A stretch of 39,122 nt of DNA from IMG/VR virus record IMGVR_UViG_3300030331_001851, positions 1 to 39,122 of that record; one strand, written 5' to 3'. Each line of letters starts with the position of its first letter. Position 1 is the stretch's first letter. The notes under the pieces are model-generated. The model had not been told where the DNA came from, did no database searches, and was given only the letters and a program-made list of their open reading frames with translations. Below are positions 6,142 to 39,122 of the stretch, piece by piece. This DNA is from a virus. A program made the position numbers and the translations under genes.

Positions 6142-6219
6142 TGGCGGGAGTGAAGGGACTCGAACCCTCGGCCTCTTCCGTGACAGGGAAGCGTTCTAAC
6201 CAAACTGAACTACACCCCC
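6142..6219 (-). tRNA. tRNA-Asp(GUC), CCA encoded
   Basis: The minus strand folds as a complete tRNA: acceptor GGGGGTG/CACTCCC (one G-T pair), D-stem GTTC/GAAC, anticodon stem CTTCC/GGAAG with loop CTGTCAC giving anticodon GTC, T-arm GAGGG-TTCGAGT-CCCTT, discriminator G and an encoded CCA. All stems pair. It is in the middle of the minus-strand operon and would be made with the early transcripts. It reads both Asp codons. The fibre proteins of this window are very Asp-rich, which gives a plausible use. Confidence 0.95.
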
Positions 6220-23378: not shown

Positions 23379-23606
23379 ATGAGTGATACTTTAAAAGTAA
23401 AAGGTCATGCACATCTAATTAGAGATTTAAAATCTCAGGCAATCATTAATACAGATTCAGACGCATATGCCAAATACATGGCAAGAAAAATAAAACAAAA
23501 AGAAAAAGATGATGAAGTGAGACAAGTGGTTCGTGATGTTAATGAACTAAGAAACGAAATGAGAGAAATAAAAAATTTAATTATAGGACTCAAAAATGGC
23601 AGATAG
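23379..23606 (+). CDS. Small coiled-coil virion-associated protein
   Basis: 75 aa from the ATG 5 nt after the DUF4815 stop (MSDTLKVKGHAHLIRDLKSQ); an earlier in-frame start would sit inside the upstream gene. The second half, 'KQKEKDDEVRQVVRDVNELR' and NEMREIKNLI, is a clean heptad coiled coil. Small proteins of this type follow DUF4815 genes in other marine phages. It probably links or trimerises a structural part. The next gene starts within its last 11 bases. Confidence 0.6.
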   Translation: MSDTLKVKGHAHLIRDLKSQAIINTDSDAYAKYMARKIKQKEKDDEVRQVVRDVNELRNEMREIKNLIIGLKNGR

Positions 23607-24519
23607 AAGTATAGCAGCAGGAGATACATTAAATAAATTAAGATTTGAATTTAATGGTAGTGCTGAAGATATAGGAGAAATATCAGGCATCACAGGTGCA
23701 AGTGGTATTATTGCCAGTGCAACTGATGTTGTTGAAGCTATCACAGCATTGAATACTGATATTACAACCATTTCAACTGACAATCATGTTTTTGGTGGGT
23801 CTATTATTTTTGAAGGTGCAACTGACGATAGTTTTGAAACAACTTTAGCAGTTACAGATCCTACAGCAGATAGAACAATCACACTACCTAATGCAACTGG
23901 TACTGTTTCTTTGATTGATGCTACAGAAACATTAACAAATAAAACTTTGACAGCACCAACTATAACAAATGGCGTATTTAATACTGCTGTTTCTGGTACT
24001 GCTGTAAAAGATGAAGATGATATGTCAAGTGATAGTGCAACTGCTGTGGCAACACAACAAAGTATTAAAGCATTTGTTGAAAACTTAATTGCAGCTCAAG
24101 ATTTAGATATTGCACCAGATAGTGGCACAGGACAAAGTATTCTTTTACCAAGTGAAACACTAACTTTTTCTGGTGGATCAAATATTGCAAGTAGTGCTAC
24201 AGGTAATACAGTAACTTTTGCAATATCAGATGTCGTGCAACTCACAGCTTCACAAACATTAACGAACAAAACTTTTACAAGTCCTACAATCAACACATTA
24301 ACTTTTGCTTCAGGACAATCAACTTCAGGTTTAAATATTGGTGCAAATGGTATTGTATTCGAAGGTGCAACGGCTGACGCACACGAGACAACTTTAACAG
24401 CTGCTGACCCAACACAAGATAATACAATCACAATACCTAATGAATCAATCACTTGTGTAACAACAGCAACACACGCAACAAAATCAAATCATATTTCAAG
24501 ATGTATTGCATTAGGATAG
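23596..24519 (+). CDS. Tail-fibre-like protein, paralogue A
   Basis: 307 aa. N-terminus MADRSIAAGDTLNKLR is shared with the next gene. The middle has fibre repeats: DPTADRTITLPNATGTVSL, then ATETLTNKTLTAPTI and SQTLTNKTFTSPTI. This 'TLTNKTLT.P.I' repeat is common in marine T4-like tail fibres. A 'SDSATAVATQQSIKAFVE' helix is also shared. The last 20 residues (TCVTTATHATKSNH) differ from the paralogue but both end ALG. Probably a trimeric short fibre, with the C-terminus as the variable part. Confidence 0.7.
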   Translation: MADRSIAAGDTLNKLRFEFNGSAEDIGEISGITGASGIIASATDVVEAITALNTDITTISTDNHVFGGSIIFEGATDDSFETTLAVTDPTADRTITLPNATGTVSLIDATETLTNKTLTAPTITNGVFNTAVSGTAVKDEDDMSSDSATAVATQQSIKAFVENLIAAQDLDIAPDSGTGQSILLPSETLTFSGGSNIASSATGNTVTFAISDVVQLTASQTLTNKTFTSPTINTLTFASGQSTSGLNIGANGIVFEGATADAHETTLTAADPTQDNTITIPNESITCVTTATHATKSNHISRCIALG

Positions 24520-24532: not shown

Positions 24533-25453
24533 ATGGCAGATAGATCAGTAGCAGTAACCGACACACTAGAGACATTTAGAACGACCTTCAATTCTCTTGC
24601 AGGTGACATAGGAGATATAGCAGATTTACAAAGTGCCACTGGTACGATTGCTTCATCTACTGATGTTGTAGAGGCTGTTACAGCGATGAATACAGAAATC
24701 GCTGCTCTCAAAGCAGGCACCTCAGTCTTTGAAACTAAGATAGTTTTCGAAGGTGCAACTGATGACGCAAGTGAAACAACTTTACAAATAACTGACCCAA
24801 CTGCTGATCGAACAATTACATTACCTAACTTAACTGGTACTGTTTCATTATTAGACGCAACTGAAACACTTACAAACAAAACACTCACAACACCAACACT
24901 TACAAGTGCTGTTTTGAATACTGCTGTTTCAGGTAGTGCAATATTAGATGAAGATAATATGGCTTCTGATAGTGCAACACAATTAGCAACTCAACAATCA
25001 ATCAAGGCTTTTGTAGAAGCACAAATAACTGCTGAAGATTTAGATATCACTACTGATAGCGGCACTATTGCGATTGATTTAGATAGTGAAACACTAACAA
25101 TTGCTGGAGGAACTGGTATTGATACAACTGGTTCTAGTAATACAATTACAGTAGCAGTGGATAGTACGGTTGCAACATTGACAGGATCACAGACTTTGAC
25201 AAATAAAACTCTAACTAGTCCTACTATCAATTCACCTACAATTACAAGTTTAACTGCAACAGCATTAAGTTTAACAGATTCTAGTATCGTATTTGAGGGT
25301 TCAACTGCTGATGCAAACGAAACAACTCTTACAGTTGTAGATCCTACAGCAGATAGAACAATAACACTACCAAATGAGACTGGAACACTAATAACATCAA
25401 CAAGTGCAGCTACGAATGCTTTTTCTATTTCAATCGCAGCTGCGTTAGGGTAA
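24533..25453 (+). CDS. Tail-fibre-like protein, paralogue B
   Basis: 306 aa, aligned over its whole length with the preceding protein: MADRSVAVTDTLETFR, then TDVVEAVTAMNTEI, 'VFEGATDDASETTLQITDPT', RTITLPNLTGTVSLLD, ATETLTNKTLTTPTL, ATQQSIKAFVEAQITAEDLD. The two are a tandem duplication that has diverged to perhaps half identity. The C-terminus (TNAFSISIAAALG) differs. Two versions suggest a hetero-oligomer or alternative specificity; that is inference. The gap between them is 13 nt. Confidence 0.7.
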   Translation: MADRSVAVTDTLETFRTTFNSLAGDIGDIADLQSATGTIASSTDVVEAVTAMNTEIAALKAGTSVFETKIVFEGATDDASETTLQITDPTADRTITLPNLTGTVSLLDATETLTNKTLTTPTLTSAVLNTAVSGSAILDEDNMASDSATQLATQQSIKAFVEAQITAEDLDITTDSGTIAIDLDSETLTIAGGTGIDTTGSSNTITVAVDSTVATLTGSQTLTNKTLTSPTINSPTITSLTATALSLTDSSIVFEGSTADANETTLTVVDPTADRTITLPNETGTLITSTSAATNAFSISIAAALG

Positions 25454-25457
25454 GTTG

Positions 25458-25465
25458 TATAAATA
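25458..25465 (+). promoter_or_regulatory. T4-type late promoter box, cassette 1
   Basis: Exact TATAAATA directly after paralogue B, 22 nt before the fibre at 25488; an AAGGA site lies between. Confidence 0.75.
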
Positions 25466-25487
25466 GTAATAATAAGGATATAAAAAT

Positions 25488-27224
25488 ATGGCATTATCGA
25501 AAATAATAGAAAACTCACTTGCTGATGAAGCAGTATCTTCTGCTAAACTAAAAGACTTTTCAGCTGCTGTTGATTTAAACGGCGTTGAATTAGTTTTAGA
25601 CGCAGACGCAGATACAAGTATTACAGCAGATACAGATGATAGAATAGATTTTAAAATCGCAGGTGTTGAACACTTTTCTTTCTCTAATAGTTCAGGTGAT
25701 ACTATTATTAAACCGATGGTTGACGCCAAAGATATTAAGTTTCAACAATTTGATGGCAGAACACTTTTAGATATTAATGACGGTGGGTTTGTAGGTATCG
25801 CAAACGGTGCTACAAGTTCTGGTGAAATTAGATTTTTTGAAGATACAGACAATGGTTCAAACTATGTAGGTTTAAATGCAGGTAGTATATCTTCATCATT
25901 CACATTAACATTACCAACTGCTGATGGTTCTTCAGGACAGTTTCTAAAAACAGATGGTTCTGGTGCTTTATCTTTTGATACGGTATCAAGTGCTGCTGAC
26001 GATTTAACAACTGGAGACGCTGCTGTTACACTTGCTACTTCAGCAGGTAATATTACAATAGACGCACAAGGCGGCGATACAGATATTATATTCAAAGGCA
26101 CAGACGGTAGTTCAGATATTACACCAATGACATTAGATATGTCAGACGCTGGTGCTTTATTACTTACTGGTGGTAAAATTGATCTTAAAAACTCAGGTTC
26201 AAGATCAAAAATTTTATTTTATTGTGAATCAGGAAATGCACATTTTCAAACACTTCAGGCTGCACCACACTCAGAAAGTGCTTCAAATACTTTAACACTA
26301 CCGAGCACAGGTGGTGATGTTGATTTAGTTTCAACTGCTTCAACTGCTACACTTACAAACAAAACACTAACAACACCAATAATTGCTGAAATAGATAATA
26401 GTTCTAATATAACTTTAGACGCAGGTGCTGATATCATCTTAGACGCTGATGGTGCTGATATTATTTTCAAAGATGGTGGAACATCTATCTTAACAATTAC
26501 AAATAATTCTACCGATACTGATGTTGACTTTACAGTTGCAACGCAAGATAAAGATATTGTATTTAAAGGCGATGATGGTGGATCAGGTATCACAGCATTG
26601 ACAATAGATATGTCCGATGCAGGAACTTTGATCGCAAACCATAATTTAGAATTAGGCACAGACGCTTCAGAAATATTATTTGGTACAGATAACGAAGTTA
26701 AGATAATTCATAACGCAGACAAAGGATTAATTTTAAAACATACAGCGACTGCTGACGACAAACCTGTTATATTAACATTACAAACAGGCGAAACAGATTT
26801 AGCAGCTAATGATGTTATAGGTAAAGTAGAGTTTCAAGCACCAGATGAGGGCACAGGAACAGACGCTGTATTAGTTGCAGCTGCAATTCAGGCAGTTTCT
26901 GAAGGTGATTTTAGTGCTTCTTCAAATGCAACAAGTTTAGAGTTTATGACAGGTGCTTCAGAGGCAGCTGCAAAAAAATTAACACTAACAAGTGCAGGAC
27001 ATTTACTACCTGCATCTGATGATGCCCAAGATTTAGGCTCATCATCATTACAGTTTAGAGACATATATACTGGTGACTTAAACTTAAATAACACAAGACA
27101 CAGAAAAAATGAAGTAGATGGTACTTCTGGTTCATGGACAATTCAAGAGGGTGAAAATGACTTGTATATATTAAATAGATTAAACGGAAAAAAATTTAGA
27201 TTTAAATTAGAGGAGATACAATAA
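25488..27224 (+). CDS. Long tail fibre protein, cassette 1
   Basis: 578 aa. N-terminal module NGVELVLDADADTSITADTD, then FKIAGVEHFSF, 'DAKDIKFQQFDGRTLLDIND' and EIRFFEDTDNGSNYVGL recurs in the other fibres of this window. The middle has SRSKILFYCESGNAH, TLTNKTLTTPIIAEID and TLDAGADIILDADGADIIFK. The C-terminal 80 residues (SAGHLLPASDDAQDLGSSSL, QFRDIYTGDLNLN) resemble a fibre end domain that often precedes an intramolecular chaperone or adhesin. Expected to form long beta-helical trimers. It heads an operon with a 188-aa and a chaperone-like protein. Confidence 0.75.
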   Translation: MALSKIIENSLADEAVSSAKLKDFSAAVDLNGVELVLDADADTSITADTDDRIDFKIAGVEHFSFSNSSGDTIIKPMVDAKDIKFQQFDGRTLLDINDGGFVGIANGATSSGEIRFFEDTDNGSNYVGLNAGSISSSFTLTLPTADGSSGQFLKTDGSGALSFDTVSSAADDLTTGDAAVTLATSAGNITIDAQGGDTDIIFKGTDGSSDITPMTLDMSDAGALLLTGGKIDLKNSGSRSKILFYCESGNAHFQTLQAAPHSESASNTLTLPSTGGDVDLVSTASTATLTNKTLTTPIIAEIDNSSNITLDAGADIILDADGADIIFKDGGTSILTITNNSTDTDVDFTVATQDKDIVFKGDDGGSGITALTIDMSDAGTLIANHNLELGTDASEILFGTDNEVKIIHNADKGLILKHTATADDKPVILTLQTGETDLAANDVIGKVEFQAPDEGTGTDAVLVAAAIQAVSEGDFSASSNATSLEFMTGASEAAAKKLTLTSAGHLLPASDDAQDLGSSSLQFRDIYTGDLNLNNTRHRKNEVDGTSGSWTIQEGENDLYILNRLNGKKFRFKLEEIQ

Positions 27225-27790
27225 TGTCTTTAATAGTAGCAGGAACAACTTTTACAACTCCACAAATTGTTTTTTTAGGAGAATCAAAATCTAATAGTGC
27301 GGCAAGTTCAGCCACAATAGATAATATTTTTTCAGACACCTATCACTTGTATTTCTTTCATGCAGATATATTAGTAGCCACTAGCGGTACTCATGTTACT
27401 GCACAATTAGTATCTTCTGGCACAGCAGACACAGATGGATATTATTACTCTTTTCAAGGTTTAGACCAAGCAGGTAATAGTGAATCTGGAGATTCTGCTG
27501 GAGCAGCAGCATCATGGTCAATTTCAGGTGCTAATTCAAATCAAAGGGGAGTTCACATACACGGACATATATCTGGTCCTACATCAGGACAAGATAATAA
27601 TAAAAAGATTTCTTGGGCGTGTGAATCTTTTGATGCTGCTAATAATCAAGCTCATAGAACAGGCGGTGGGTTTCAAACAACATCAAGTGACCACACAGGA
27701 ATAAAAATTTTCTGTGGTTCAGGAAATATGACACAACATAGCATACAAATATATGGTATAGCAAATACAGAAAGATTTGGAGGATTTTAA
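27224..27790 (+). CDS. Fibre-associated beta protein (possible tip domain)
   Basis: 188 aa, starts on the last base of the fibre stop (TAATG). The sequence is beta-rich and Ser/His/Gly-rich: 'TYHLYFFHADILVATSGTHV', 'YYYSFQGLDQAGNSESGD', 'HIHGHISGPTSGQDNNKKIS'. No family recognised. Clustered His residues could bind metal, as in some T4 gp12-type tips. It seems to be the separable receptor-side or capping protein of cassette 1. Its stop overlaps the start of the next gene in the same manner. Confidence 0.5.
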   Translation: MSLIVAGTTFTTPQIVFLGESKSNSAASSATIDNIFSDTYHLYFFHADILVATSGTHVTAQLVSSGTADTDGYYYSFQGLDQAGNSESGDSAGAAASWSISGANSNQRGVHIHGHISGPTSGQDNNKKISWACESFDAANNQAHRTGGGFQTTSSDHTGIKIFCGSGNMTQHSIQIYGIANTERFGGF

Positions 27791-28098
27791 TGGCATTTAG
27801 TAAAAGTGATATAGCACCTGCTTTAGTAAATGGCAGCGAGGTAACTCTATCTGATTCTGAAAAAGACGCTATCGTAACAGAATGGAATAACAATGTAGTT
27901 AGTGAATTAAATTTAGCTCTTCTTAATCTAAGAAAAAAAAGAAATAGACTATTGGCGGATAGCGATTGGATGGGTAATTCAGATGTAACAATGACAGACG
28001 CATGGAAAACATATCGTCAAGCATTGAGAGATTTGACGAATGGACTAGATACTGTTGATAAAGTAAACTCAGTAACTTGGCCAACAGAACCGTCATAG
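27790..28098 (+). CDS. Tail-fibre assembly chaperone-like protein
   Basis: 102 aa. The C-terminal half 'RKKRNRLLADSDWMGNSD', then AWKTYRQALRDLTNGL and TWPTEPS has the classical layout RxxLLAxSDW...W..YRQALRDL...WP of phage tail-fibre assembly chaperones (Phage_tail_APC type). Such proteins bind the fibre during folding and are encoded next to it. It closes cassette 1. Its start overlaps the preceding stop (TTTTAATGG). Confidence 0.75.
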   Translation: MAFSKSDIAPALVNGSEVTLSDSEKDAIVTEWNNNVVSELNLALLNLRKKRNRLLADSDWMGNSDVTMTDAWKTYRQALRDLTNGLDTVDKVNSVTWPTEPS

Positions 28099-28105
28099 AA
28101 CAAGG

Positions 28106-28113
28106 TATAAATA
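28106..28113 (+). promoter_or_regulatory. T4-type late promoter box, cassette 2
   Basis: Exact TATAAATA, with the following 13 nt (through the AAAGGAAA ribosome site, to 28126) identical to the sequence at 31849-31869 before cassette 3, so promoter and RBS are a duplicated unit. Confidence 0.75.
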
Positions 28114-28137
28114 TAGTTAAAGGAAATGAATTAAAAC

Positions 28138-30264
28138 ATGGCATATATAGGAAAAGCACCAGTAAACGGATTTCATAAAAAACAATCTTTAACGACTGAT
28201 GGAAGTACGGTTACTTTCTCATTAGATTTTACTGTTGCAAGTGAAGAAGCACTTATCGTTGTTGTAGGTGGTGTAATTCAAGAACCAAGATCAGCATACA
28301 ATCTTGCAAGTGGTGGCACTCAAATTACATTTACGGCAGCTCCAGCTTCTACTGATACTGCGTATGTGATTTTTCTAGGAACAGCAATTGTTCAAAATTT
28401 AAATAGTGCTGGTGGGGCAGAATTAATTTTAGATGCTGATAATGATACATCTTTTACTGCTGATACAGACGATCAAATAGATATTAAGATTGCAGGTGCT
28501 GATGACTTTCAGTTTACAGCAAATAAATTTAGCACACTATCAGGAAGTAGTCAAGAGTTTGCAGATAACTCAGTAGCAAAATTTGGTGCAAGTCAAGATA
28601 TGACCATCTTTCATGATGGCACAGATTCATTAATTACAAATAAAACAGGCACTATGAAAATAGCAACTGAGACATCAGGCATTGCTGTTACGATAGGACA
28701 TACAACTTCAGAAACAACTGTCGCTGATAATCTAACAGTAACAGGTAATTTAACAGTTGGTGGCACTACAAGTTTTGGTGATTTCGATATTACAAATGTA
28801 GGTAGTATCGCTCTTGATAGTATTACAAATGATGGCACAGATATTACTTTAGATTCATCAAATGATATTGTCATAGACGCTGAAGGTGGTAATATAGAAT
28901 TTAAAGATGCAGGTACTTTACAACTTACTTTAGATATGGATGGCACCGCAGGTGCTCAAGTTATAAAACTTGGTGTTGATTCAGATGATTTAATTTTTCA
29001 ACAATTTGATGGCAACGAAGTAATCAGAATTGGTGATGATAGAAGATTATATTTCTTCGATAAAGGTGGAGAGTATATCGTTGGCGATGGTACAGATTTA
29101 AGTATATTTGCTAGTGCAGATATTAACATACCTGCAAATGTAGGATTAACATTTGGTGATGATGGCGAAAAGATTGAAGGTGATGGAACAGATTTAACTA
29201 TTTCTGGTAATAATATTAATCTTACTGCTACAGCAGATGTTGTAGTTCCTGCAAATGTAGGAATCACTTTTGGTAGTGGCGAAAAAATCGAGGGTGATGA
29301 TACAGATTTAACTATTACATCAGGTGCAAAAATTAATTTAACTGCAACTTCAGATGTTCACATACCTAATAATGTAGGTATCGTATTTGGCGGTGATTCA
29401 GAAAAGATTGAAGGTGATGGTACTGATATGACCATTAGTGCTAATAATTTAACAATAGATGCCGCTGCTGATATTAGTTTTGATGCTGCTGGTAATGATT
29501 TCAAGTTTCTTGCTGGTGGTACTGAAATACTTAATATTACAAACAGTTCAAGCGATGTTGTTATCAAACCGATCGTTGATGCCAAAGATATTATCTTTCA
29601 ACAAAGAGATGGTACTGAAGTTGCAAGAATAGAAGATAATGGAACATTCAATGTAGTTACTGACAAATTAGCAATCAATGGCACAGCAGTTACATCAACT
29701 GCAGCTGAATTAAATAAATTAGATGGTGCTGGTACAATAAAACAGGCAGGAAAAGAAACTATATGGGTTCCTTCAACTGCTATGACACCAACTGCTTCAA
29801 ATGGTTGCGCTGCTATAGCAACAGTTGAAACAACATCTGGCAGACCTGATATGAATGTTTTAGATTTTGATAAAGATTCAGATGAGTTTGCTCAATTTGC
29901 TGTTGCTTTTCCTAAATCATGGAATGAAGGCACGGTTACTTTTCAATTTTACTGGTCTGGAATTGCAGCTACAACAGGTGTTGCTATGAGCTTACAAGGT
30001 GTTGCTTTTGCAGATAATGATTCTATTGATACTGCATACGGAACAGCAGTTGTCGTGCAAGATAATGCTCAAGGTGCTGTAGAAGAACTGTTAGTATCTG
30101 CTGAAAGTAGTGCGATTACTATTGCTGGTTCACCAAGCACCGATGAACTTGTTTATTTTAGACTTGGTAGAGATGTTTCTGATAGTAATGATGACATGGC
30201 AGGTGATTGTAGAATACATGGTGTTAAGTTATTCTTTACTACTGACGCTGCTAATGACGCTTAA
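28138..30264 (+). CDS. Long tail fibre protein, cassette 2
   Basis: 708 aa. N-terminus MAYIGKAPVNGFHKKQSL and a beta domain (VVVGGVIQEPRSAYNL) resemble virion-attachment modules of marine fibres; cassette 4 has a related one. The ADTDDQIDIKIAGADDF module follows at about 110, then long repeats 'EKIEGDGTDLTISGNN', 'INLTATADVVVPANVG', near residues 328-492, identical save three residues to the cassette 3 fibre. C-terminal part ('ETIWVPSTAMTPTASNG', 'NEGTVTFQFYWSGIAAT') is unique, probably the specificity domain. A long Asp-rich beta-helical fibre is expected. Confidence 0.8.
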   Translation: MAYIGKAPVNGFHKKQSLTTDGSTVTFSLDFTVASEEALIVVVGGVIQEPRSAYNLASGGTQITFTAAPASTDTAYVIFLGTAIVQNLNSAGGAELILDADNDTSFTADTDDQIDIKIAGADDFQFTANKFSTLSGSSQEFADNSVAKFGASQDMTIFHDGTDSLITNKTGTMKIATETSGIAVTIGHTTSETTVADNLTVTGNLTVGGTTSFGDFDITNVGSIALDSITNDGTDITLDSSNDIVIDAEGGNIEFKDAGTLQLTLDMDGTAGAQVIKLGVDSDDLIFQQFDGNEVIRIGDDRRLYFFDKGGEYIVGDGTDLSIFASADINIPANVGLTFGDDGEKIEGDGTDLTISGNNINLTATADVVVPANVGITFGSGEKIEGDDTDLTITSGAKINLTATSDVHIPNNVGIVFGGDSEKIEGDGTDMTISANNLTIDAAADISFDAAGNDFKFLAGGTEILNITNSSSDVVIKPIVDAKDIIFQQRDGTEVARIEDNGTFNVVTDKLAINGTAVTSTAAELNKLDGAGTIKQAGKETIWVPSTAMTPTASNGCAAIATVETTSGRPDMNVLDFDKDSDEFAQFAVAFPKSWNEGTVTFQFYWSGIAATTGVAMSLQGVAFADNDSIDTAYGTAVVVQDNAQGAVEELLVSAESSAITIAGSPSTDELVYFRLGRDVSDSNDDMAGDCRIHGVKLFFTTDAANDA
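29119..29613 (+). repeat. Shared fibre module, copy 1
   Basis: 495 bp coding for 165 residues from DINIPAN to QQRDG. It consists of about three 38-40 aa units, each with EKIEGD.TD.TI. Copy 2 is at 32845-33339, copy 3 at 38724-39098. Bases 29428-29501 (74 nt) are identical to 33154-33227. Confidence 0.85.
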
Positions 30265-30276
30265 GAGTATTAAAAC

Positions 30277-31440
30277 ATGAGTTTTGGATATCAAATTTTA
30301 GGTTTTGGTGCTGGAGGCTCGCCGCCTCCAACTATATCTTCTATATCTGGTAAAATTTTAGTAGGCAGTGCTTCTAACTTAACATTAGCTGGCACAAATT
30401 TTGGAACAGCTAATTTAGTTGTAAAATTTGTTCAGGCTTCTGATTCAATAAGTGAAACTGTCTCAGTTACTCCAACAAGTTTAACAAACTCTGGCGCAGT
30501 TGCTGTTCCAGCTGCGGTTTATAATAATGTAACTGCTGGTAATGCTGTTGATATATCAGTTACAAACGAATTTTCTAAGGAATCTACTGTTACACAAACA
30601 ACTGCTCTAGGATTACCAACTGGCGGTAATATTACTACAAGTGGTAATTTCAGAATACATACATTCACATCTTCAGGAACATTTGGTAATACTATCGCAG
30701 ACTTACAAACACAATTCTTAGTTGTTGCTGGTGGCGGTGGTGGTTCACAATCACAACACGCAACTGGTGGGGGTGCTGGTGGTGCTGGAGGTTATCGTTG
30801 TTCTGTGTCAGGTGAAAATTCTGGTGGGGGTGATTCTGCTGAAAGTGCTCTAACACTATCTACAGGAAATAAAACAGTTACAATTGGAGGTGGAGGTGGA
30901 GATCGAACAGATGGTTCAGACTCCGTTTTCGATTCAATCACATCTGATGGTGGTGGTAAAGGTGGTGGTTATCAAAGAGTTTCAGGTGGTAATGGTGGAT
31001 CAGGAGGTGGTGCTGCTTTCCAAGCAGGCGCTGGTTCTGGTACATCTGGTCAAGGATTTAATGGTGGTTCCGCTACTACTGGTGGCGGAGGAGGAGGCGG
31101 AGGTGCTGGTGCTGTAGGTGGCAACTCAGGTGGTAATCACTTAGGTGGTAATGGCGGCACAGGTGTTTCTTCTTCAATCTCAGGTTCTAGTGTGACCCGT
31201 GCTGGTGGAGGTGGAGGTGGTTGTCATAACGGTTATGGTGGATCTCCAGATTCAGGTGACGGTGGTTCTGGTGGAGGTGGTCGAGGTTCTGCTAGAGGTG
31301 TGAATGGTGGCGATACTCCAATAAGTGGTTCAGCTAATACTGGCGGTGGTGGAGGAGGACCTATTGGTGATAGTTCACAAGGTGGTGCATCAGGTGGTTC
31401 TGGAATAGTAATAGTTAGATACGATTTAACAGCGATATAG
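30277..31440 (+). CDS. Gly-rich adhesin-like protein following a fibre
   Basis: 387 aa. Residues about 15-105 (SPPPTISSISGKILVGSASN, LTLAGTNFGTANLVVKFVQ) look like an IPT/TIG-type Ig domain. From about 125 a Gly-rich domain runs to the end: VVAGGGGGSQSQHATGGGAG, then many GGGG blocks separated by short polar loops, closing with SGIVIVRY. This arrangement recalls Gly_rich_2 domains and the polyglycine adhesin gp38 of T2/S16-type phages, which caps the long fibre encoded just upstream. Here too it follows a long fibre gene by 12 nt. Likely the receptor-binding tip of cassette 2; the adhesin role is inferred. Confidence 0.7.
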   Translation: MSFGYQILGFGAGGSPPPTISSISGKILVGSASNLTLAGTNFGTANLVVKFVQASDSISETVSVTPTSLTNSGAVAVPAAVYNNVTAGNAVDISVTNEFSKESTVTQTTALGLPTGGNITTSGNFRIHTFTSSGTFGNTIADLQTQFLVVAGGGGGSQSQHATGGGAGGAGGYRCSVSGENSGGGDSAESALTLSTGNKTVTIGGGGGDRTDGSDSVFDSITSDGGGKGGGYQRVSGGNGGSGGGAAFQAGAGSGTSGQGFNGGSATTGGGGGGGGAGAVGGNSGGNHLGGNGGTGVSSSISGSSVTRAGGGGGGCHNGYGGSPDSGDGGSGGGGRGSARGVNGGDTPISGSANTGGGGGGPIGDSSQGGASGGSGIVIVRYDLTAI

Positions 31441-31448
31441 GAGATATA

Positions 31449-31841
31449 ATGGGACATTTTGCAAAAGTAAATAGCGGAACAGTTGAAAAAGTAATAGTTG
31501 CAGAACAAGATTTTATTGATTCTGGTGCGGTTGGTAGTCCAAGTGATTGGGTTCAATGTTCTTACAACACACGAGGTGGTAAACACTATGAGCCAAACTC
31601 TGGTTATAGTGTAGAGAGTTCTGATCAATCAAAAGCACTGAGAAAGAATTACCCTGGACCAGGTTATAAATATGATGGTACTGGATTTTACATGCCACAA
31701 CCTTATGGATCATGGACTTTGAATAGCACAACTTATCTATGGGAACCACCTATTGCTAACCCAAATACTGGCACTACATTATATAAATGGAATGAAACTC
31801 TTTATCAATCAGACAATACAAAAGGTTGGGAAGAAGTATAA
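31449..31841 (+). CDS. Conserved fibre-region protein
   Basis: 130 aa. The start MGHFAKVNSGTVEKVIVAEQ, then DWVQCSYNTRGGKHYEP, 'ALRKNYPGPGYKYDGTGFYM', QPYGSWTLNSTTYLWEPP is a widely conserved pattern in marine T4-like phages, usually near tail fibres. No function has been proved that I know. It may be an assembly factor, since its N-terminal pattern is like those of fibre chaperones. An internal TATAAATA (31665) is read as GYKYDG and is likely chance. Confidence 0.65.
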   Translation: MGHFAKVNSGTVEKVIVAEQDFIDSGAVGSPSDWVQCSYNTRGGKHYEPNSGYSVESSDQSKALRKNYPGPGYKYDGTGFYMPQPYGSWTLNSTTYLWEPPIANPNTGTTLYKWNETLYQSDNTKGWEEV

Positions 31842-31856
31842 ATATAGTTATAAATA
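31837..31856 (+). promoter_or_regulatory. Tandem late promoter boxes, cassette 3
   Basis: Two exact TATAAATA boxes at 31837-31844 and 31849-31856, 12 nt apart. The first overlaps the stop of the previous gene. The second, with its flank, is the duplicated copy of the cassette 2 promoter/RBS unit. Confidence 0.75.
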
Positions 31857-31872
31857 TAGTTAAAGGAAACAC

Positions 31873-33714
31873 ATGGCACTATCAAAAGCAACACTTATCG
31901 ATCTAAATTCTAATGAATTAATACTTGATTTAGACGCTGATACAAGTATTACAGCAGATACAGACGATACGATTCATATTAAGATTGCAGGTTCTGATGA
32001 ATTAACTTTGACTGCTACTGCGATTGCACCATCCACAAGTGATGGTCAGGCACTAGGCACAAGTTCATTGATGTTTTCTGACTTGTTTCTTGCAAGTGGT
32101 AGTGTATTAAATTTCAATAATGGTGATGTAACTCTTACTCACGCTTCAAACCTTTTAACACTTGATGGTGGTTCTTTAGACTTAGATGGTGAAGCATTAA
32201 TTTTAGATACTGATGGCGATACTAAACTTGTAGAGAGTGCTGATGATGTCATAGATTTTCAGTTCGCAGGTTCAACATCTACACCTACACAATTTGGTGC
32301 TGGCTATATATCACTTAAAAACCAAGGTACAAGATCATACATAAGATTTTATTGTGAGAGTTCAAACGCCCACTATACAGAATTAAGAGCTGCAGCTCAT
32401 AGTGATTACTCTGGTAATGTTCAAGTAACTTTACCTACAACTGCAGGTACTCTTGCCACACTAACAGGCACAGAAACATTTACAAATAAAACATTAACAA
32501 CACCTGTTATCGCTGAAATAGATTCAGGTTCTACAATCACACTAGACGCAACAACTGATATCGTGTTAGACGCTGATGGCGGCGATATCATTTTCAAAGA
32601 TGATGGCACGACAATTGCTACATTTACAAATAGTTCTACTGACTTAATTATTGAAACAGCAACCTCAGATAAAGATATTATATTTAAAGTAAACGATGGT
32701 GGTTCTTCTACTGAAGTCGCAAGATTTGATGGTGATGTTTCATCATTTAAAATGGCTTCGGGTAAAAAGATTATGTTGGGTGCTGCTGAAGAAACAATTT
32801 CAGGTGATGGTACAGATATAACCTTTGAAGTAGGATCAAGTGGTGATATAAACATACCAGCAAATATAGGTTTAACTTTTGGTGATGATGGTGAAAAGAT
32901 CGAAGGTGACGGAACAGACTTAACAATTTCAGGCAACAACATTAATTTAACTGCTACAGCAGATGTTGTTGTGCCAGCGAATGTAGGCGTTACATTTGGT
33001 TCTGGTGAGAAAATAGAAGGCGATGATACAGATTTAACAATCACTTCTGGTGCTAAAATTAATCTTACTGCAACAAGTGATGTACATATACCGAATAATG
33101 TAGGTATCGTATTTGGTGGTGATAGTGAGAAGATTGAAGGCGATGGCACAGACATGACCATTAGTGCTAATAATTTAACAATAGATGCCGCTGCTGATAT
33201 TAGTTTTGATGCTGCTGGTAATGATTTTAAATTTCTCGCAGGCGGTACAGAGATACTTAATATCACGAATAGTTCAAGTGATGTAGTAATCAAACCGATT
33301 GTTGACGCAAAAGATATCATCATACAACAAAGAGATGGCACTTCATTAGTAGAATTTAACGATGGTGCTTACAGTAAATTTACTGCGATGGCATACAATC
33401 CAGAAGCAACACTCACAGATGCTTCAACTATTTCTTGGAATGTTCTCACTTCTCCTGTTGCAAAAGTAACATTAGGTGCAAATAGAACATTAGGTGCTGC
33501 TTCAGGTAGTCAGGCAGGACAGTTTGTATCTTTACTTGTAATTCAAGACGGCACAGGTAGTAGAACATTATCATTTAATGCTGTTTATGAGTTTAAAGAT
33601 GATACAGCACCAACATTAACAACAACAGCTGATAAAGGCGACTTGTTTGTATTTAGATATAATGGAAGTAAGTTTTTAGAAGTTGGTAGAAATCAGAATT
33701 TAACTTTATCATAG
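31873..33714 (+). CDS. Long tail fibre protein, cassette 3
   Basis: 613 aa. The N-terminus SNELILDLDADTSITADTDD is the shared module; SLKNQGTRSYIRFYCESSNA, then FTNKTLTTPVIAEID is close to cassette 1, and the EKIEGD repeat part (residues 325-489) is nearly the same as cassette 2. The C-terminus ('ATLTDASTISWNVLTSPVAK', 'LGAASGSQAGQFVSLLVIQD', DKGDLFVFRYNGSKFLEVG) is a different beta domain seen in other phage fibres. A clear example of modular exchange: left half from one neighbour, repeat from another. Confidence 0.8.
   Translation: MALSKATLIDLNSNELILDLDADTSITADTDDTIHIKIAGSDELTLTATAIAPSTSDGQALGTSSLMFSDLFLASGSVLNFNNGDVTLTHASNLLTLDGGSLDLDGEALILDTDGDTKLVESADDVIDFQFAGSTSTPTQFGAGYISLKNQGTRSYIRFYCESSNAHYTELRAAAHSDYSGNVQVTLPTTAGTLATLTGTETFTNKTLTTPVIAEIDSGSTITLDATTDIVLDADGGDIIFKDDGTTIATFTNSSTDLIIETATSDKDIIFKVNDGGSSTEVARFDGDVSSFKMASGKKIMLGAAEETISGDGTDITFEVGSSGDINIPANIGLTFGDDGEKIEGDGTDLTISGNNINLTATADVVVPANVGVTFGSGEKIEGDDTDLTITSGAKINLTATSDVHIPNNVGIVFGGDSEKIEGDGTDMTISANNLTIDAAADISFDAAGNDFKFLAGGTEILNITNSSSDVVIKPIVDAKDIIIQQRDGTSLVEFNDGAYSKFTAMAYNPEATLTDASTISWNVLTSPVAKVTLGANRTLGAASGSQAGQFVSLLVIQDGTGSRTLSFNAVYEFKDDTAPTLTTTADKGDLFVFRYNGSKFLEVGRNQNLTLS
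32845..33339 (+). repeat. Shared fibre module, copy 2
   Basis: 495 bp, same length as copy 1. By hand alignment only three of 165 residues differ (one V to I, one I to V, one F to I), while many codons differ synonymously. Bases 33154-33227 are identical to copy 1. Confidence 0.85.
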
Positions 33715-33722
33715 GAGATATA

Positions 33723-34343
33723 ATGTTTGCAATAGTAGAATCAGGATCAATTACATCAATGCCAAGAGGCAATAAAGGTGTAGAAATAAATGGTGTAAAA
33801 CACCCAGCTTCTATATTCACACTATGGACAGAAAGTGAAAGAAATGCTATTGGTGTTTACACGATAGAGATTGATGAAACAAATAAAAAAGATGAAGAAT
33901 ATTATATTAACACTAATATAACTTACTCTTATGATTCATCAGCAAACAAAGTTAAAGGTGTTTATGGTACAGCAACTGCTAAAGCTATCGCAGATACTAA
34001 GTGGACACAAAAAGAAATAGATGATGGTGACGCACCATCAGGCGCTGATACAAACACGGTAAAAGATGAAGGATTAAAAACAATTAAGAAAAGAATGATA
34101 GATAATCAATGTGCAGAATTACTCGCACCTAGTGATTGGATGTATATCAAAGCAGGTGAAGAAGGCACAACAATGGATTCAGGATGGAAAACATGGCGTG
34201 CTTCCGTTAGAACTAAATGTAATTCAATGCAAACACAAATAGACAATGCAGCTGATGTTGATGCCCTTGCTGCTTTATTCAAATACACAACGACAGACGG
34301 AGTAACATCAAGACCATTAGGTGAGTTTCCAATTAAGGAGTAA
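33723..34343 (+). CDS. Fibre-assembly/chaperone-like protein, cassette 3
   Basis: 206 aa. The N-terminal half (MFAIVESGSITSMPRGNKGV, TLWTESERNAIGVYTIEID) is the kind of domain that starts many phage tail-fibre assembly proteins. The C-terminal half 'RMIDNQCAELLAPSDWMYIK', GWKTWRASVRTKCN carries a variant of the RxxLLAxSDW...W..R..VR motif seen in the cassette 1 chaperone-like protein. Probably the cognate chaperone of the cassette 3 fibre. RBS is GGAGATATA before ATG. Confidence 0.65.
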   Translation: MFAIVESGSITSMPRGNKGVEINGVKHPASIFTLWTESERNAIGVYTIEIDETNKKDEEYYINTNITYSYDSSANKVKGVYGTATAKAIADTKWTQKEIDDGDAPSGADTNTVKDEGLKTIKKRMIDNQCAELLAPSDWMYIKAGEEGTTMDSGWKTWRASVRTKCNSMQTQIDNAADVDALAALFKYTTTDGVTSRPLGEFPIKE

Positions 34344-34349
34344 TATAAT

Positions 34350-35759
34350 ATGGTTTTCCCAATAACAGGCGGAACACAAAGTACAGGTTTATACGAAGTA
34401 GAAAATTCACTTAGGTTTAATGATGATGATAGTCCTTATCTAACTGAAAGACCCGCTTCCGGTAATAGAAAAACTTTTACTTTTAGTACATGGTTTAAAA
34501 GGGGCAATCTAAAATCAAGTGGAGAAAATTTTTTATTTGGAGGTTCTTCTGATGGCTCTTCTGACACTACTGAATTTAAACTTCAAAATGATAAACTTAC
34601 TTTCATAATTTTTGATGGTTCATCTAATACTTCTTACATAAGAACTAATGCTGTGTTAAGAGACCCAGCAGCATGGTATCATGTTGTTTTTAGAATAGAT
34701 TTAACTCAAGCAACAAACACAGATAGAATCAGATTATATATTAATGGGGTTTTACAAACATCTCTTGACCAAACTACTTACGATGGACAAAATAATGATA
34801 GTTTTATGTCTTTAAATAATGGTTATCATAGAATAGGTGCAGACCCAAGAACAGCTGCAAATTTCTTTGATGGATACATGGCAGAAACTTATTATATAGA
34901 CGGTCAATCATATGACCCAACATACTTTGGTGAATTTAATGATGACGGAGTTTGGGTTCCTGTAGAAAAAAATAAAGGAGCAGGAGGCACTATAACTTTT
35001 GGAACTAATGGTTTCTATATGCAGTTTCAACAAACAGGAACAAGTGCAAACTCTAGTGGTATGGGTGCAGACACATCTGGTCAAGATAATCATTTTACAC
35101 CAACTAATCTTGCAGCCATAGATGTAACAGAAGATACACCAACAAATAATTTTGCTACATTTAACTCTATTTTTCAAAATAATAATACATATTTTTCTGG
35201 ACCTGCAACATTAAGAGAAGGAAACACAGGAGCAACTGGTGTTAATACTGAAGGTAATGTGTCTACCATAGGACTTACTCAAGGAAAATGGTATTGGGAA
35301 GTAAAAATTGTAAATAGAGTTTCTAATGATTTAAACATTAATATTATAAATATTGGTGATAATACAGGCACTTTAGCGGCTTCCGTGCAATGGCAATCAC
35401 AAGATGATTTATATGTTAATGGAAGTAAAACGGCAGACTTAAATTCTTTTACAGATGATGATATAATTGGAGTAGCTTTAGATTTAGATTCTAGTACCCC
35501 TAATGTAAAATTTTATAAAAATGGAACAATAGAAAATAGTGGTAATGCCATAAATTTTGCTGCAAGTGATAGAGATAATGGAGTAATATTTGCATCAGTT
35601 GGTATAGAAAATACATCAGATGATGCACTAATTAATTTTGGCAATCCTGCCTTTAGCATATCAAGTGGCAACACAGACGGCAAGTATGGTAACTTTGAAT
35701 ATGCACCACCATCAGGATATTATGCAATATGTAGTAAAAGAATAGCGGAGTTTGGATAA
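34350..35759 (+). CDS. LamG/concanavalin-like plus SPRY-like fibre protein
   Basis: 469 aa, two beta-sandwich domains. Residues about 20-180: SLRFNDDDSPYLTE, FTFSTWFKRGNLK, 'RIRLYINGVLQTSLDQT', 'HRIGADPRTAANFFDGYMAE', a LamG/laminin-like lectin pattern. Residues about 270-440: GLTQGKWYWEVKIV, 'DDIIGVALDLDSSTPNVKFY', KNGTIENSG, a SPRY/B30.2-like pattern. Both folds bind glycans or proteins, so a receptor-binding role is plausible. Its stop overlaps the start of the next gene by one base. I know similar pairs from marine phages; no function is proved. Confidence 0.65.
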   Translation: MVFPITGGTQSTGLYEVENSLRFNDDDSPYLTERPASGNRKTFTFSTWFKRGNLKSSGENFLFGGSSDGSSDTTEFKLQNDKLTFIIFDGSSNTSYIRTNAVLRDPAAWYHVVFRIDLTQATNTDRIRLYINGVLQTSLDQTTYDGQNNDSFMSLNNGYHRIGADPRTAANFFDGYMAETYYIDGQSYDPTYFGEFNDDGVWVPVEKNKGAGGTITFGTNGFYMQFQQTGTSANSSGMGADTSGQDNHFTPTNLAAIDVTEDTPTNNFATFNSIFQNNNTYFSGPATLREGNTGATGVNTEGNVSTIGLTQGKWYWEVKIVNRVSNDLNINIINIGDNTGTLAASVQWQSQDDLYVNGSKTADLNSFTDDDIIGVALDLDSSTPNVKFYKNGTIENSGNAINFAASDRDNGVIFASVGIENTSDDALINFGNPAFSISSGNTDGKYGNFEYAPPSGYYAICSKRIAEFG

Positions 35760-36814
35760 TGGCTTATACAACAATAGACGACCCTTCAGCACATTTTACA
35801 ACTACTTTGTACACAGGTAATGCAAGTACAAATGCCATAACTAATAGTGCAAATGCAGGTGATTTTCAACCTGATTGGGTTTGGCTTAAATCTAGAAGTT
35901 CTGCAACACATCACAGATTGTATGATAGTTCTAGAGGTGCTTTAAAAAATATAATATCAAGTGCTGCTAATACAGAGGCAACTACAGCAAATAGTTTAAC
36001 ATCTTTTGACAGTAATGGATTTACTTTAGGTAGTGATGATAATTCAAATCAAAACTCTAAAACCTTTGTGGGTTGGCAATGGAAAGCTAATGGTGGAACT
36101 ACATCATCTAATAGTGATGGAGATATAACTTCTACAGTACAAGCTAACACCACAGCAGGATTTAGTATTGTACTTTTTACAGGTAATGCAACAGCAGGTC
36201 AAACTGTGGGTCATGGTCTTGGAGTTAAACCAGAAGTAATATTTGCAAAGAATAGAAGTAATGGTAATAACTGGAACTGTTATGTAGAAGCTACTGATAA
36301 CACTGGAGACAATACTCTTACTTTAAATGGCACTGGTGCTAAAAGTGATTCTTTTAATATGTGGAATGATACTGCACCTACAAGTTCTGTAATCACTTTA
36401 GGAGATAGAAATGAAACAAATGGTAGCAGTCATAACATGGTTTTTTATTGTTTTCATTCTGTAAAAGGTTATTCAAAGTTTGGTTCCTATGTAGGTAATG
36501 GTAATGATGATGGAACATTCATTTATACAGGCTTTAAACCAGCTTGGTTTTTAGCTAAAAGATCAGTTGGCGGAACCAGTCATTGGACTATGTTAGACAC
36601 TACAAGAAATCCTTTTAATCTTGCTGAAAGTTATCTTCATGCTAATGAAACGAATGTAGAGAATACTAATAATCAAAAAGCTGATTTTTTATCAAATGGT
36701 ATTAAACTTCGCTCTACTAACAGACACAATAATTCTGGAAGTACATTTTTTTACATGGCATTTGCAGAACACCCATTTGTAAGTAGTGGGGGAGTACCAG
36801 TTACTGCAAGATAA
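35759..36814 (+). CDS. Phage virion/receptor-binding-like protein
   Basis: 351 aa. The phrases 'GDFQPDWVWLKSRSSATHHR', 'YDSSRGALKNII' at the N-terminus and GFSIVLFTGNATAGQTVGHG, LGVKPEVIFAKNRSNGNN, 'SYVGNGNDDGTFIYTGFKPA' later are typical of a family found next to LamG/SPRY-type fibre proteins in marine phages. It contains an internal duplication: the DWVWLK / EVIFAK / AWFLAK units near 40, 160 and 260. Likely a beta-propeller or beta-sandwich attachment protein. It closes cassette 3. Confidence 0.65.
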   Translation: MAYTTIDDPSAHFTTTLYTGNASTNAITNSANAGDFQPDWVWLKSRSSATHHRLYDSSRGALKNIISSAANTEATTANSLTSFDSNGFTLGSDDNSNQNSKTFVGWQWKANGGTTSSNSDGDITSTVQANTTAGFSIVLFTGNATAGQTVGHGLGVKPEVIFAKNRSNGNNWNCYVEATDNTGDNTLTLNGTGAKSDSFNMWNDTAPTSSVITLGDRNETNGSSHNMVFYCFHSVKGYSKFGSYVGNGNDDGTFIYTGFKPAWFLAKRSVGGTSHWTMLDTTRNPFNLAESYLHANETNVENTNNQKADFLSNGIKLRSTNRHNNSGSTFFYMAFAEHPFVSSGGVPVTAR

Positions 36815-36818
36815 TGAG

Positions 36819-36847
36819 TATAAATAGTTATAAATATAATATAAATA
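36819..36847 (+). promoter_or_regulatory. Three tandem late promoter boxes, cassette 4
   Basis: Exact TATAAATA at 36819-36826, 36829-36836 and 36840-36847, starts 10 and 11 nt apart, all in the 51-nt gap before 36866. An AAAGGATA ribosome site follows. Confidence 0.8.
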
Positions 36848-36865
36848 TAAGAAAAGGATAATAAA

Positions 36866-37225
36866 ATGGCTAACGATTTTAAAAGATTTTGCACACCAGA
36901 TATCAGTAATAGTAGTAATACAACAATTTACGCTGTGCCTGCTGGTTCAGGAAGTGCTGCTCTAGAATCAATCGTTATTGGTATTACCTGTGCAAATAAA
37001 TCAACCTCGGGTGTAACAGTAGATATTTTCATAGATAACGAAGATGGATCGAATGATGTCTTTATCGTGAAAAATGCTAGTATTCCTGCAGGCGCTTCAC
37101 TAGAAGTGATGTCAGGAAATAAACTAGTATTACAAAACGATGGTTCAAACGGAGATAATTTAGAAGCTCTTGCTAGTGCTGCTAGTGCTGTAGATATTAC
37201 AGTATCAGTATTAGAAGATGTATAA
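36866..37225 (+). CDS. Conserved small virion-type protein
   Basis: 119 aa. Starts MANDFKRFCTPDISNSSNTT; the beta-rich part 'ESIVIGITCANKSTSGVTVD', IFIDNEDGSNDVFIVKN, ASIPAGASLEVMSGNKLVLQ resembles a small conserved protein of marine T4-like phages that sits with fibre genes and appears in virion proteomes, as I recall. Seems to be a small beta-sandwich decoration or fibre-base protein. It is the only gene directly behind the triple promoter, so it is probably made in large amount. Confidence 0.65.
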   Translation: MANDFKRFCTPDISNSSNTTIYAVPAGSGSAALESIVIGITCANKSTSGVTVDIFIDNEDGSNDVFIVKNASIPAGASLEVMSGNKLVLQNDGSNGDNLEALASAASAVDITVSVLEDV

Positions 37226-37238
37226 AAGGAAATAATTA

Positions 37239-39122
37239 ATGGCATATATTGGACAACCACCATTTCAAGATTTTACATCTGTACCTACAAAAGATTCTTT
37301 TACAGGTGATGGATCAACAACAACTTTTGATTTAGCGAATGATGTAGTTCGTGGTGCAGAAAACGCCTTAGAGGTTTTTGTTGATAATGTAAGACAAGAA
37401 CCTGGCACTGGTAAAGCATTTACATTAGGTGTCGATGGTAGTAATAACTTTAGAAGAATAACTTTTAGTGCTGCTCCAGCAAATGGCGCTTCAATCTATG
37501 TTATCAATGATAAAACAAATCTTACAGCAATCGCACCACTCAACACAGATTTTAATGGTGCAGAGTTAGTCTTAGACGCAGACGCTGATACAACTTTACA
37601 CGCAGACACAGATGATGAAATAGATGTAAGAGTTGGCGGTAATGATATTATCACAATCAAACATTCTAGTGGCGATGGTATTTTACAAATACCAGTTGAC
37701 GCAAAAGATTTACAATTTTTACAGGCCGATGGTTTTAAAGTTGCAGAAATAAATGATGGAGGGTTCTTAGGTGTAGGTGGTAATAGTAATGCTGCTGGTG
37801 AAATAAGAATTTTTGAAGATACAGATAATGGATCAAACTATGTAGGATTTTCAGCACCAAATGTAACAACGAGTAGAACTTATATTTTTCCTGCTGCTGA
37901 TGGTAGTTCAGGAACACACTTAACAACAGATGGATCAGGAAACTTATCTTGGTCAGCTTCACTCACTCTCGCAAATGATTCAAATAATAGAGTTGTAACA
38001 GGCACAGGTTCAGGATTAAATGGTGAAGCAAACTTAACATTTGACGGTTCAACTTTAGATGTAACAGGTGCTATAACAGCAAGTGGTGCAATAACAGGTT
38101 CATCAACTGTGCAAGGAACAACAATAACTGCTACAACAGCATTTGTTCCTGACGCTTCTGATGGTGCAGCTTTAGGCACAACAGCATTAGAGTTTTCAGA
38201 TTTATTCTTGGCAGATGGTGCAGTAATTAATTTAGGTAATGACCAAGATGTTACACTAACTCATGTTGCTGATACAGGTGTTTTATTAAATGGTGCAAGT
38301 GTTATTCAATTTAGAGATTCGGGTTTAACAATAGGCTCAAACGCTGATGGTGATTTAGATATAGTTTCAGACGGCACTGCCGTAGATTCAATTAATATAG
38401 AATCTGCTGGTGGTATTACATTAGATGCTGGTACGGCAGGTAGTGGTATTATCTACGAAGATGATGGCACAGAAATGATGAGAATACATAACAGTTCAAG
38501 TGATGTTATTCTAGAATCAAAAGTTTCTGATAAAGATATTATATTTAAAGTAAATGATGGTGGGTCATCAACTGAAGTGTTTAGAGTAGATGGTGATGTT
38601 TCTGCTTTATTAGTTGCTTCAGGTAAAGAATTAAGATTCGCAGATTCTGGTGAAAAGATTTCAGGTAATGGCACAGACTTAACACTTAACTCTGGTGCTG
38701 ACATCAACTTAACAGCAACAACTGATATTAATATACCTGCGAATGTAGGATTAACATTTGGCGATGACGCTGAAAAGATTGAAGGCGATGGTACCGATCT
38801 AACTATCTCTGGTAATAATATTAATTTAACAGCAACTGCCGATGTTGTAGTTCCTGCAAATGTAGGTATAACATTTGGTAGTGGAGAAAAAATTGAAGGC
38901 GATAACACAGATTTAACTATTACATCAGGCGCTAAAATCAACTTAACAGCGACAAGTGATGTACACATACCTAACAATGTAGGTATCGTATTTGGTGGCG
39001 ATAGTGAGAAGATTGAAGGTGATGGTACTGATATGACCATCTCAGCAAACAACTTAACAATAGATGCCGCTGCTGATATTAGTTTTGATGCTGCTGGTGA
39101 TAATATTAGATTAAAATATGAC
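37239..39122 (+). CDS. Long tail fibre protein, cassette 4 (C-terminus beyond window)
   Basis: 628 codons are open to the right edge. The N-terminus MAYIGQPPFQDFTSVPTK, then a domain ending RQEPGTGKAFTLGVDG, is related to the cassette 2 attachment module. 'ELVLDADADTTLHADTDDEI' and EIRIFEDTDNGSNYVGF are as in cassette 1; DKDIIFKVNDGGSSTEV as in cassette 3; from residue 496 the EKIEGD repeat is as in cassettes 2 and 3 until SFDAAG, after which the sequence (DNIRLKYD) departs. So this fibre joins modules from all three others. ATG has the AAAGGAAA site upstream. Confidence 0.8.
   Translation, partial: MAYIGQPPFQDFTSVPTKDSFTGDGSTTTFDLANDVVRGAENALEVFVDNVRQEPGTGKAFTLGVDGSNNFRRITFSAAPANGASIYVINDKTNLTAIAPLNTDFNGAELVLDADADTTLHADTDDEIDVRVGGNDIITIKHSSGDGILQIPVDAKDLQFLQADGFKVAEINDGGFLGVGGNSNAAGEIRIFEDTDNGSNYVGFSAPNVTTSRTYIFPAADGSSGTHLTTDGSGNLSWSASLTLANDSNNRVVTGTGSGLNGEANLTFDGSTLDVTGAITASGAITGSSTVQGTTITATTAFVPDASDGAALGTTALEFSDLFLADGAVINLGNDQDVTLTHVADTGVLLNGASVIQFRDSGLTIGSNADGDLDIVSDGTAVDSINIESAGGITLDAGTAGSGIIYEDDGTEMMRIHNSSSDVILESKVSDKDIIFKVNDGGSSTEVFRVDGDVSALLVASGKELRFADSGEKISGNGTDLTLNSGADINLTATTDINIPANVGLTFGDDAEKIEGDGTDLTISGNNINLTATADVVVPANVGITFGSGEKIEGDNTDLTITSGAKINLTATSDVHIPNNVGIVFGGDSEKIEGDGTDMTISANNLTIDAAADISFDAAGDNIRLKYD
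38724..39098 (+). repeat. Shared fibre module, copy 3 (shorter)
   Basis: 375 bp aligned with the first 375 bp of copies 1 and 2. The last 45 bases (39054-39098) are identical in all three copies, and similarity stops exactly there. Confidence 0.85.

Follow-up and report, generated by a model that had tools for sequence, protein, structure and literature searches.

The window analysed here is the entire 39,122-nucleotide (nt) virus record IMGVR_UViG_3300030331_001851 from IMG/VR, and its region from position 25458 onwards contains four units, each with one long tail fibre gene (F1 to F4); the end of the record cuts unit 4. This region is very probably a row of late operons in the host recognition cluster (HRC) of a pelagimyophage-like virus, in which relatives exchange a fibre tip together with the accessory genes behind it, as far as the beginning of the next gene. 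The evidence, read off the sequences, consists of the positions of a promoter-like box (TATAAATA), the gene content of the units, the breakpoints between relatives and the linkage of tips with accessory genes.

The breakpoints were located by pairwise comparison of the window and related loci (numbered with the prefix L). The window and L090 are approximately 90% identical from the VrlC gene through the first box into F1, to position 26503 (approximately residue 339). Beyond it, the F1 tip, the genes of a 188-amino-acid (aa) and a 102-aa protein and the box at 28106 are replaced in L090 by another tip and a 118-aa gene, and homology is restored 6 nt before the F2 start codon. The window and L227 have F3 in common to approximately 32504 (approximately residue 210), are then completely different, and become homologous again 2 nt before the box at 36829, with 96% DNA identity in the next, 119-aa gene. 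L092 and L230 have a common fibre to residue 423–426, followed either by the genes of a 206-aa protein (c206), a LamG protein and a DUF7483 protein or by a quite different gene set, and homology returns 21–24 nt before a conserved box. L092 and L094 form a further breakpoint pair. The left break thus falls within the fibre gene, so that what is exchanged is the tip together with the accessory genes. Where the left breakpoint was in a fibre gene (38 comparisons), the right one was at most 60 nt from the start of the next open reading frame (ORF) in 35, whereas 7.4% would be expected from random placement. In pairs of T4-like phages it was near a box in 11 of 44 (0.9% at random), in some instances before gp8. 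Phages without boxes show the same exchange pattern at the next gene start, which indicates that the promoter is not in itself the cutting point but belongs to the conserved beginning of the following gene. The genes and boxes of the region are as follows.

16871..23374, + strand: VrlC homologue, 2167 aa; VrlC is annotated at the same place in the HTVC008M record; conserved left border of the cluster, no box upstream
23596..24519, + strand: short fibre fS1, 307 aa; PHROG tail fiber protein / baseplate wedge initiator
24533..25453, + strand: short fibre fS2, 306 aa; PHROG tail fiber protein; 93% aa identity in L090
25458..25465, + strand: putative late promoter box 1, 22 nt before F1
25488..27224, + strand: fibre F1, 578 aa; C-terminal match to PHROG tail fiber protein phrog_892
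27224..27790, + strand: 188-aa orphan protein, no relative
27790..28098, + strand: 102-aa tail fibre assembly chaperone; Phage_tail_APC, PF16778, E=2.4e-13; PHROG tail fiber assembly
28106..28113, + strand: putative late promoter box 2, 24 nt before F2; absent in L090
28138..30264, + strand: fibre F2, 708 aa; N-terminal domain common to F4, shaft module common to F3 and F4
30277..31440, + strand: 387-aa glycine-rich adhesin-like protein; Gly_rich_2, PF21722, E=1.8e-9
31449..31841, + strand: 130-aa accessory protein; phrog_7759
31837..31856, + strand: tandem putative late promoter boxes 3 (31837, 31849), before F3; the first overlaps the stop codon of the 130-aa gene
31873..33714, + strand: fibre F3, 613 aa; tip at approximately residues 496–613
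33723..34343, + strand: 206-aa chaperone-like protein (c206); profile and viral fold matches
34350..35759, + strand: 469-aa LamG (lectin-like) protein; Laminin_G_3, PF13385, E=3.5e-16; SPRY below cut-off
35759..36814, + strand: 351-aa DUF7483 protein, receptor-binding-like; PF24299, E=7e-112; PHROG tail fiber protein
36819..36847, + strand: triple putative late promoter boxes 4 (36819, 36829, 36840), before s119
36866..37225, + strand: 119-aa small structural protein (s119), leading a fibre unit; in Pelagibacter, Methylophilales and cyanophage records
37239..39122, + strand: fibre F4, 628 aa so far; the contig end cuts it inside the shared shaft module

Tips and accessory genes travel together. 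An F3-type tip was found directly upstream of c206 homologues in 38 of 47 cases, most of them followed by LamG and DUF7483; asking what lies upstream of a given c206 is unbiased by the search query, whereas the reverse direction is biased. In 8 of 38 relatives, the F2-type tip is followed by a glycine-rich protein of the 387-aa type, and in 19 of 38 a protein of the 130-aa type lies within three genes of that tip. The module of F3 tip, c206, LamG and DUF7483 is also present in the cultured pelagiphage HTVC202P, behind a lambda J-type tail protein, in the lambda-like L172, which encodes a J-type protein and a tape measure, and in L173, which has another tail type. In HTVC202P (L389, 5115–6591), two overlapping ORFs of 254 and 256 aa apparently take the place of a single LamG gene, which may reflect a frameshift or a domain split. 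Sharing of fibre–chaperone modules among unrelated phages is already known from the Alteromonas phages V22 and A5, in which the fibre moves with its cognate chaperone (PMC10579305). Fibre and chaperone likewise move jointly across phage families here; the present module adds LamG and DUF7483, and its junction was mapped inside the shaft.

All seven boxes listed in an earlier reading made from the window's letters alone (the sequence-only reading) are present, and all are on the coding strand. They also lie, as it had stated, just before each new unit, 16–39 nt ahead of the fibre start or of the 119-aa gene leading the fibre (from box end to start codon, 22 nt for box 1, 24 nt for box 2, 28 and 16 nt for boxes 3, and 39, 29 and 18 nt for boxes 4). 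Two intragenic boxes at 31665 (130-aa gene) and 35345 (LamG gene) had not been mentioned there. Five more lie outside the fibre region (2547, 4790, 8807, 9780 and 15358); since these precede baseplate and other late genes, the boxes are general late-gene signals and not specific to fibres. Altogether, the window has 14 boxes on the + strand and none on the − strand, against chance values of approximately 3 on the + strand and 5.4 on both, and none of 100 shuffles of the window reached 14. The short fibre genes fS1 and fS2 precede unit 1, and neither has its own box. A box approximately 5 nt after fS2 is found in L306, L090, L309, L011, L092, L229 and L230.

In 94 deduplicated VrlC-bearing relatives, the coding strand carries 318 boxes and the opposite strand 15. 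Of the 318, 271 are at most 60 nt upstream of an ORF, with a median distance of 19 nt to the start. A box is located upstream of gp8 in 66 of 68 cases, of s119 homologues behind VrlC in 46 of 47 and of VrlC in 0 of 82, and at least two boxes stand ahead of s119 in 38 of 68 homologues. Of 67 window-like fibre genes in relatives (short fibres with similar repeats may account for some of these), 47 stand at the head of a box-led unit, either directly or behind the 119-aa gene. The sole reverse-strand box of Pelagibacter phage HTVC008M is just upstream of its reverse-strand gene for the DNA end protector, a late gene, and both a late sigma factor and a late promoter factor are annotated in the HTVC008M record, in a part of the genome outside the present contig. 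T4-type late promoters have been described for cyanophages, with NATAAATA in S-PM2 (PMC2984593), and TATAAAT was given as the late promoter of Melnitz (PMC9004378). The TATAAATA boxes are like T4-type late promoters in sequence, in their strand bias at above-chance numbers and in their place just upstream of late genes, and by these sequence features we assign them to this class; they would be used by the late sigma system. The window group differs in often having tandem copies, namely before s119. The method of a previous study of pelagimyophages had no success with late promoters (PMC7029224), whereas those found here are clear and positionally conserved.

HTVC008M, a T4-like phage of SAR11, was the only source of DNA matches among 50,697 phage records. 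It is the closest named relative of the window by DNA, with little similarity beyond short fibre stretches. The gene order of the window is that of HTVC008M (gp5-type protein, gp6, 1080-aa baseplate protein, gp8, VrlC, then fibres), and the contig is a pelagimyophage-like (HTVC008M-like) T4-type phage related to SAR11-infecting viruses. Zaragoza-Solas et al. (2020, PMC7029224) placed the hypervariable HRC of pelagimyophages directly behind VrlC; it encodes several proteins of the tail fibre and carbohydrate-binding kinds. The fibre region of the window is directly downstream of VrlC within the structural region, in the order gp8, VrlC, short fibres and fibres, and is hypervariable among relatives between conserved flanks; it is the proximal part, or start, of this known cluster. 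Glycosyltransferases, which were reported for HRCs, were not found with Pfam and PHROGs among the scanned proteins of the cluster part on the contig. Pelagimyophage HRCs end before the neck gene gp14, whereas the contig stops inside F4.

The locus illustrates a known type of layout well and does not constitute a new system. The same stretch of HTVC008M, after VrlC, contains five boxes, including one tandem pair, and four long fibre genes; this several-fibre, several-box layout is the same, while the tips and accessory genes are different. Melnitz has several fibre-type genes with boxes, and L312 has five fibre genes of the window type. As several fibres with several boxes are normal for the group, the contrast with T4-like phages having one or two fibre loci, drawn in the sequence-only reading, overstates the surprise. 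In the gp37/gp38-type tip exchange of T4, the distal fibre half is swapped with the following adhesin or chaperone gene. T4 has one such unit, whereas several parallel fibre units per genome are found here.

In the proposed explanation, each operon would be opened by one to three late promoters of the gp55/gp33/gp45 type. It would encode a long fibre of the trimeric type and, behind it, a dedicated folding chaperone, receptor-binding accessory proteins or both. These operons would be read late, probably together, with the boxes adding start points and no terminator between operons. Host recognition would be diversified by replacement of the C-terminal tip of a fibre plus the following accessory genes; the replaced segment would run from a left junction in the shaft of that fibre to a right junction at the next gene, in its conserved promoter, leader or start. 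Since the altered unit would keep its promoter and the N-terminal part of its fibre, and the promoter of the next unit would usually stay as well, an incoming tip would be expressed at once. All the fibres may be on the virion, and the exchanges may affect host range.

Several points weigh against this explanation. The order of the four units is given by one contig; no second contig spans the row, and the identical contig L306 stops in F1. The breakpoint counts include both members of a pair as well as related pairs and are not independent events. Approximately 30% of the window-type fibre genes in relatives (20 of the 67) have no box-led start. Left breakpoints lie in repeated DNA in 11 of 41 cases against 9.1 expected; an enrichment of breakpoints in repeated DNA was therefore rejected, and homologous recombination between shaft repeats does not follow as their cause. 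Promoter use and the presence of the fibres on the virion are predictions from sequence.

The row may instead have arisen and been reshuffled mainly by duplication and exchange among fibres of the same genome, through a shared shaft module, a possibility that we regard as doubtful. F2, F3 and F4 share a module of 110–150 aa (29167–29616, 32893–33342 and 38772–39110). Its protein identity is 148/150 between F2 and F3 and 108/110 between F2 and F4, while the DNA identity is only 82–86%. The F2/F3 value exceeds that of every between-genome pair of similar synonymous divergence (maximum 95.8%), and the same pattern was observed within one 3015-aa fibre of the metagenome locus L109 (98% aa identity, 45% synonymous differences). 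It may be that every fibre of a given phage has to carry one and the same version of the shaft. Within the module, F2 and F3 have a 74-nt exact tract (29428–29501 and 33154–33227), of which 45 nt are shared with F4 (39054–39098). The tract is longer than the synonymous divergence predicts (4 of 20,000 permutations), as recent local conversion would leave, and the main F2/L090 alignment ends inside it, at 29452. A DNA element in the tract was rejected, as the tract is not conserved across genomes. Scrambling of codons to shield the protein-identical shaft repeats from recombination was also refuted, because the exact DNA runs, which this should have shortened, exceed the expected length. Intragenomic exchange seems, from these sequences, to happen at least on a small scale. 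On the other hand, the tips and accessory genes of the units are unrelated, the left breakpoints are not enriched in intralocus repeats, and the duplication is old because 38% of codons in the rest of the F2/F3 module are synonymously different.

An extension of the tip-exchange explanation, which we consider unlikely in this full form, is that the next unit offers a permanent landing site in its conserved late promoter and leader. This short stretch of conserved DNA would serve as the right-hand homology for admitting foreign modules of tip plus accessory genes from very different phages, lambda-like phages among them. The modules would be expressed at once, and one virion would carry several fibre types in parallel.

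The sequence-only reading itself had viewed the units as promoter-to-promoter cassettes, moved whole from box to box and expressed or switched singly, which is improbable on the present evidence. Its broader idea of a modular host-range locus holds, as relatives gain, lose and replace units and each unit is opened by a late promoter. Its expectation that cassette breakpoints in relatives fall at the boxes is borne out on the right side only: right breakpoints are often 0–24 nt before a box (2–24 nt in window/L227 and L092/L230), and behind the constant junction of fS2 and box whole units differ between the window and L092, L229 and L230, but the left breakpoints are inside the fibre genes (F1 at approximately residue 339, F3 at approximately 210). 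Nor is a box on both sides required, since L090 keeps F2 though the box at 28106 is missing and phages without boxes exchange in the same way. Single switching found no support. Inversion was rejected, as the inverted repeats are only 20–33 nt long, chance-like and do not flank units; no recombinase was found among the scanned window proteins; and insulation of units by terminators was rejected because no intrinsic terminators are present at unit ends in the fibre region.

The contig end is 24 nt past the F4 copy of the 45-nt repeat, and therefore repeats probably ended the assembly. It is very unlikely that the row is a metagenome assembly artefact in which fibre units of different phages were joined at shared repeats: this stop behind a repeat common to F2, F3 and F4 and the lack of a second contig covering the whole row would fit it, but single joins recur in relatives (fS2–box–F1 in L090 and L011, F1–accessory–F2 in L090, F2 tip–glycine-rich protein in 8 loci, F3 tip–c206–LamG–DUF7483 in L092, L170 and HTVC202P, and s119–F4 in L231 and L235), and HTVC008M has four long fibre genes at the same place.

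The four long fibres are indeed rich in aspartate, as the sequence-only reading had noted (10.6–11.6% against 6–8% in five neighbouring proteins). A tRNA-Asp(gtc) gene is located at 6142–6219 on the − strand, within a cluster of short reverse-strand ORFs between baseplate operons, in a genome whose fibres are enriched in aspartate. Of the accessory contents named in that reading, the 102-aa chaperone and the glycine-rich, LamG and DUF7483 (its receptor-type) proteins were identified by Pfam, while SPRY remained below the cut-off and the 206-aa protein is only chaperone-like. Its description of unit 4 as a small protein followed by a fibre agrees with s119 and F4, for a unit that is incomplete. 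The 102-aa protein belongs to PF16778 (50.1 bits, cut-off 26.6). A Pfam scan of 38 c206 family members gave no PF16778 match and only chance-level matches. Profile comparison related c206 to the family of the 102-aa chaperone (hhalign E=3e-6, 88%), and the top hits of a BFVD search were unnamed phage proteins, with some annotated tail assembly chaperones further down, at E=1.7e-3 or weaker. As c206 is related through profile comparison and viral fold search only, we describe it as chaperone-like and do not file it in PF16778. Both proteins would act as chaperones, and the tips, LamG and DUF7483 are predicted to bind receptors. The 188-aa protein had no match in Pfam, PHROGs, viral contigs or phage records.

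The model of the DUF7483 protein is all-beta and confident (predicted local distance difference test, pLDDT, 92). Fold searches of the PDB with this protein and c206 gave nothing convincing, and the predicted model points to a possible new receptor-binding fold in marine phages. The protein (35759–36814) apparently has three internal copies of a 'YTGNG...P....K.R' motif. Small enzymes follow the fibre units inside the host-recognition cluster in L090 (11489–15953), L229 (13381–17371) and L230 (7494–11484); from sequence impression, these look like 2-oxoglutarate/Fe(II) oxygenase or glycan-modifying genes.

The tip-exchange explanation provides a concrete rule for tip change, in which the N-terminus and promoter are retained and the tip and its helpers are replaced up to the start of the next gene. 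A mobile tip module can be named, consisting of the F3 tip, c206, LamG and DUF7483, which crosses tail types and is present in a cultured pelagiphage. Pelagimyophages also appear to have recognisable T4-type late promoters, which were missed by the method of the earlier study.

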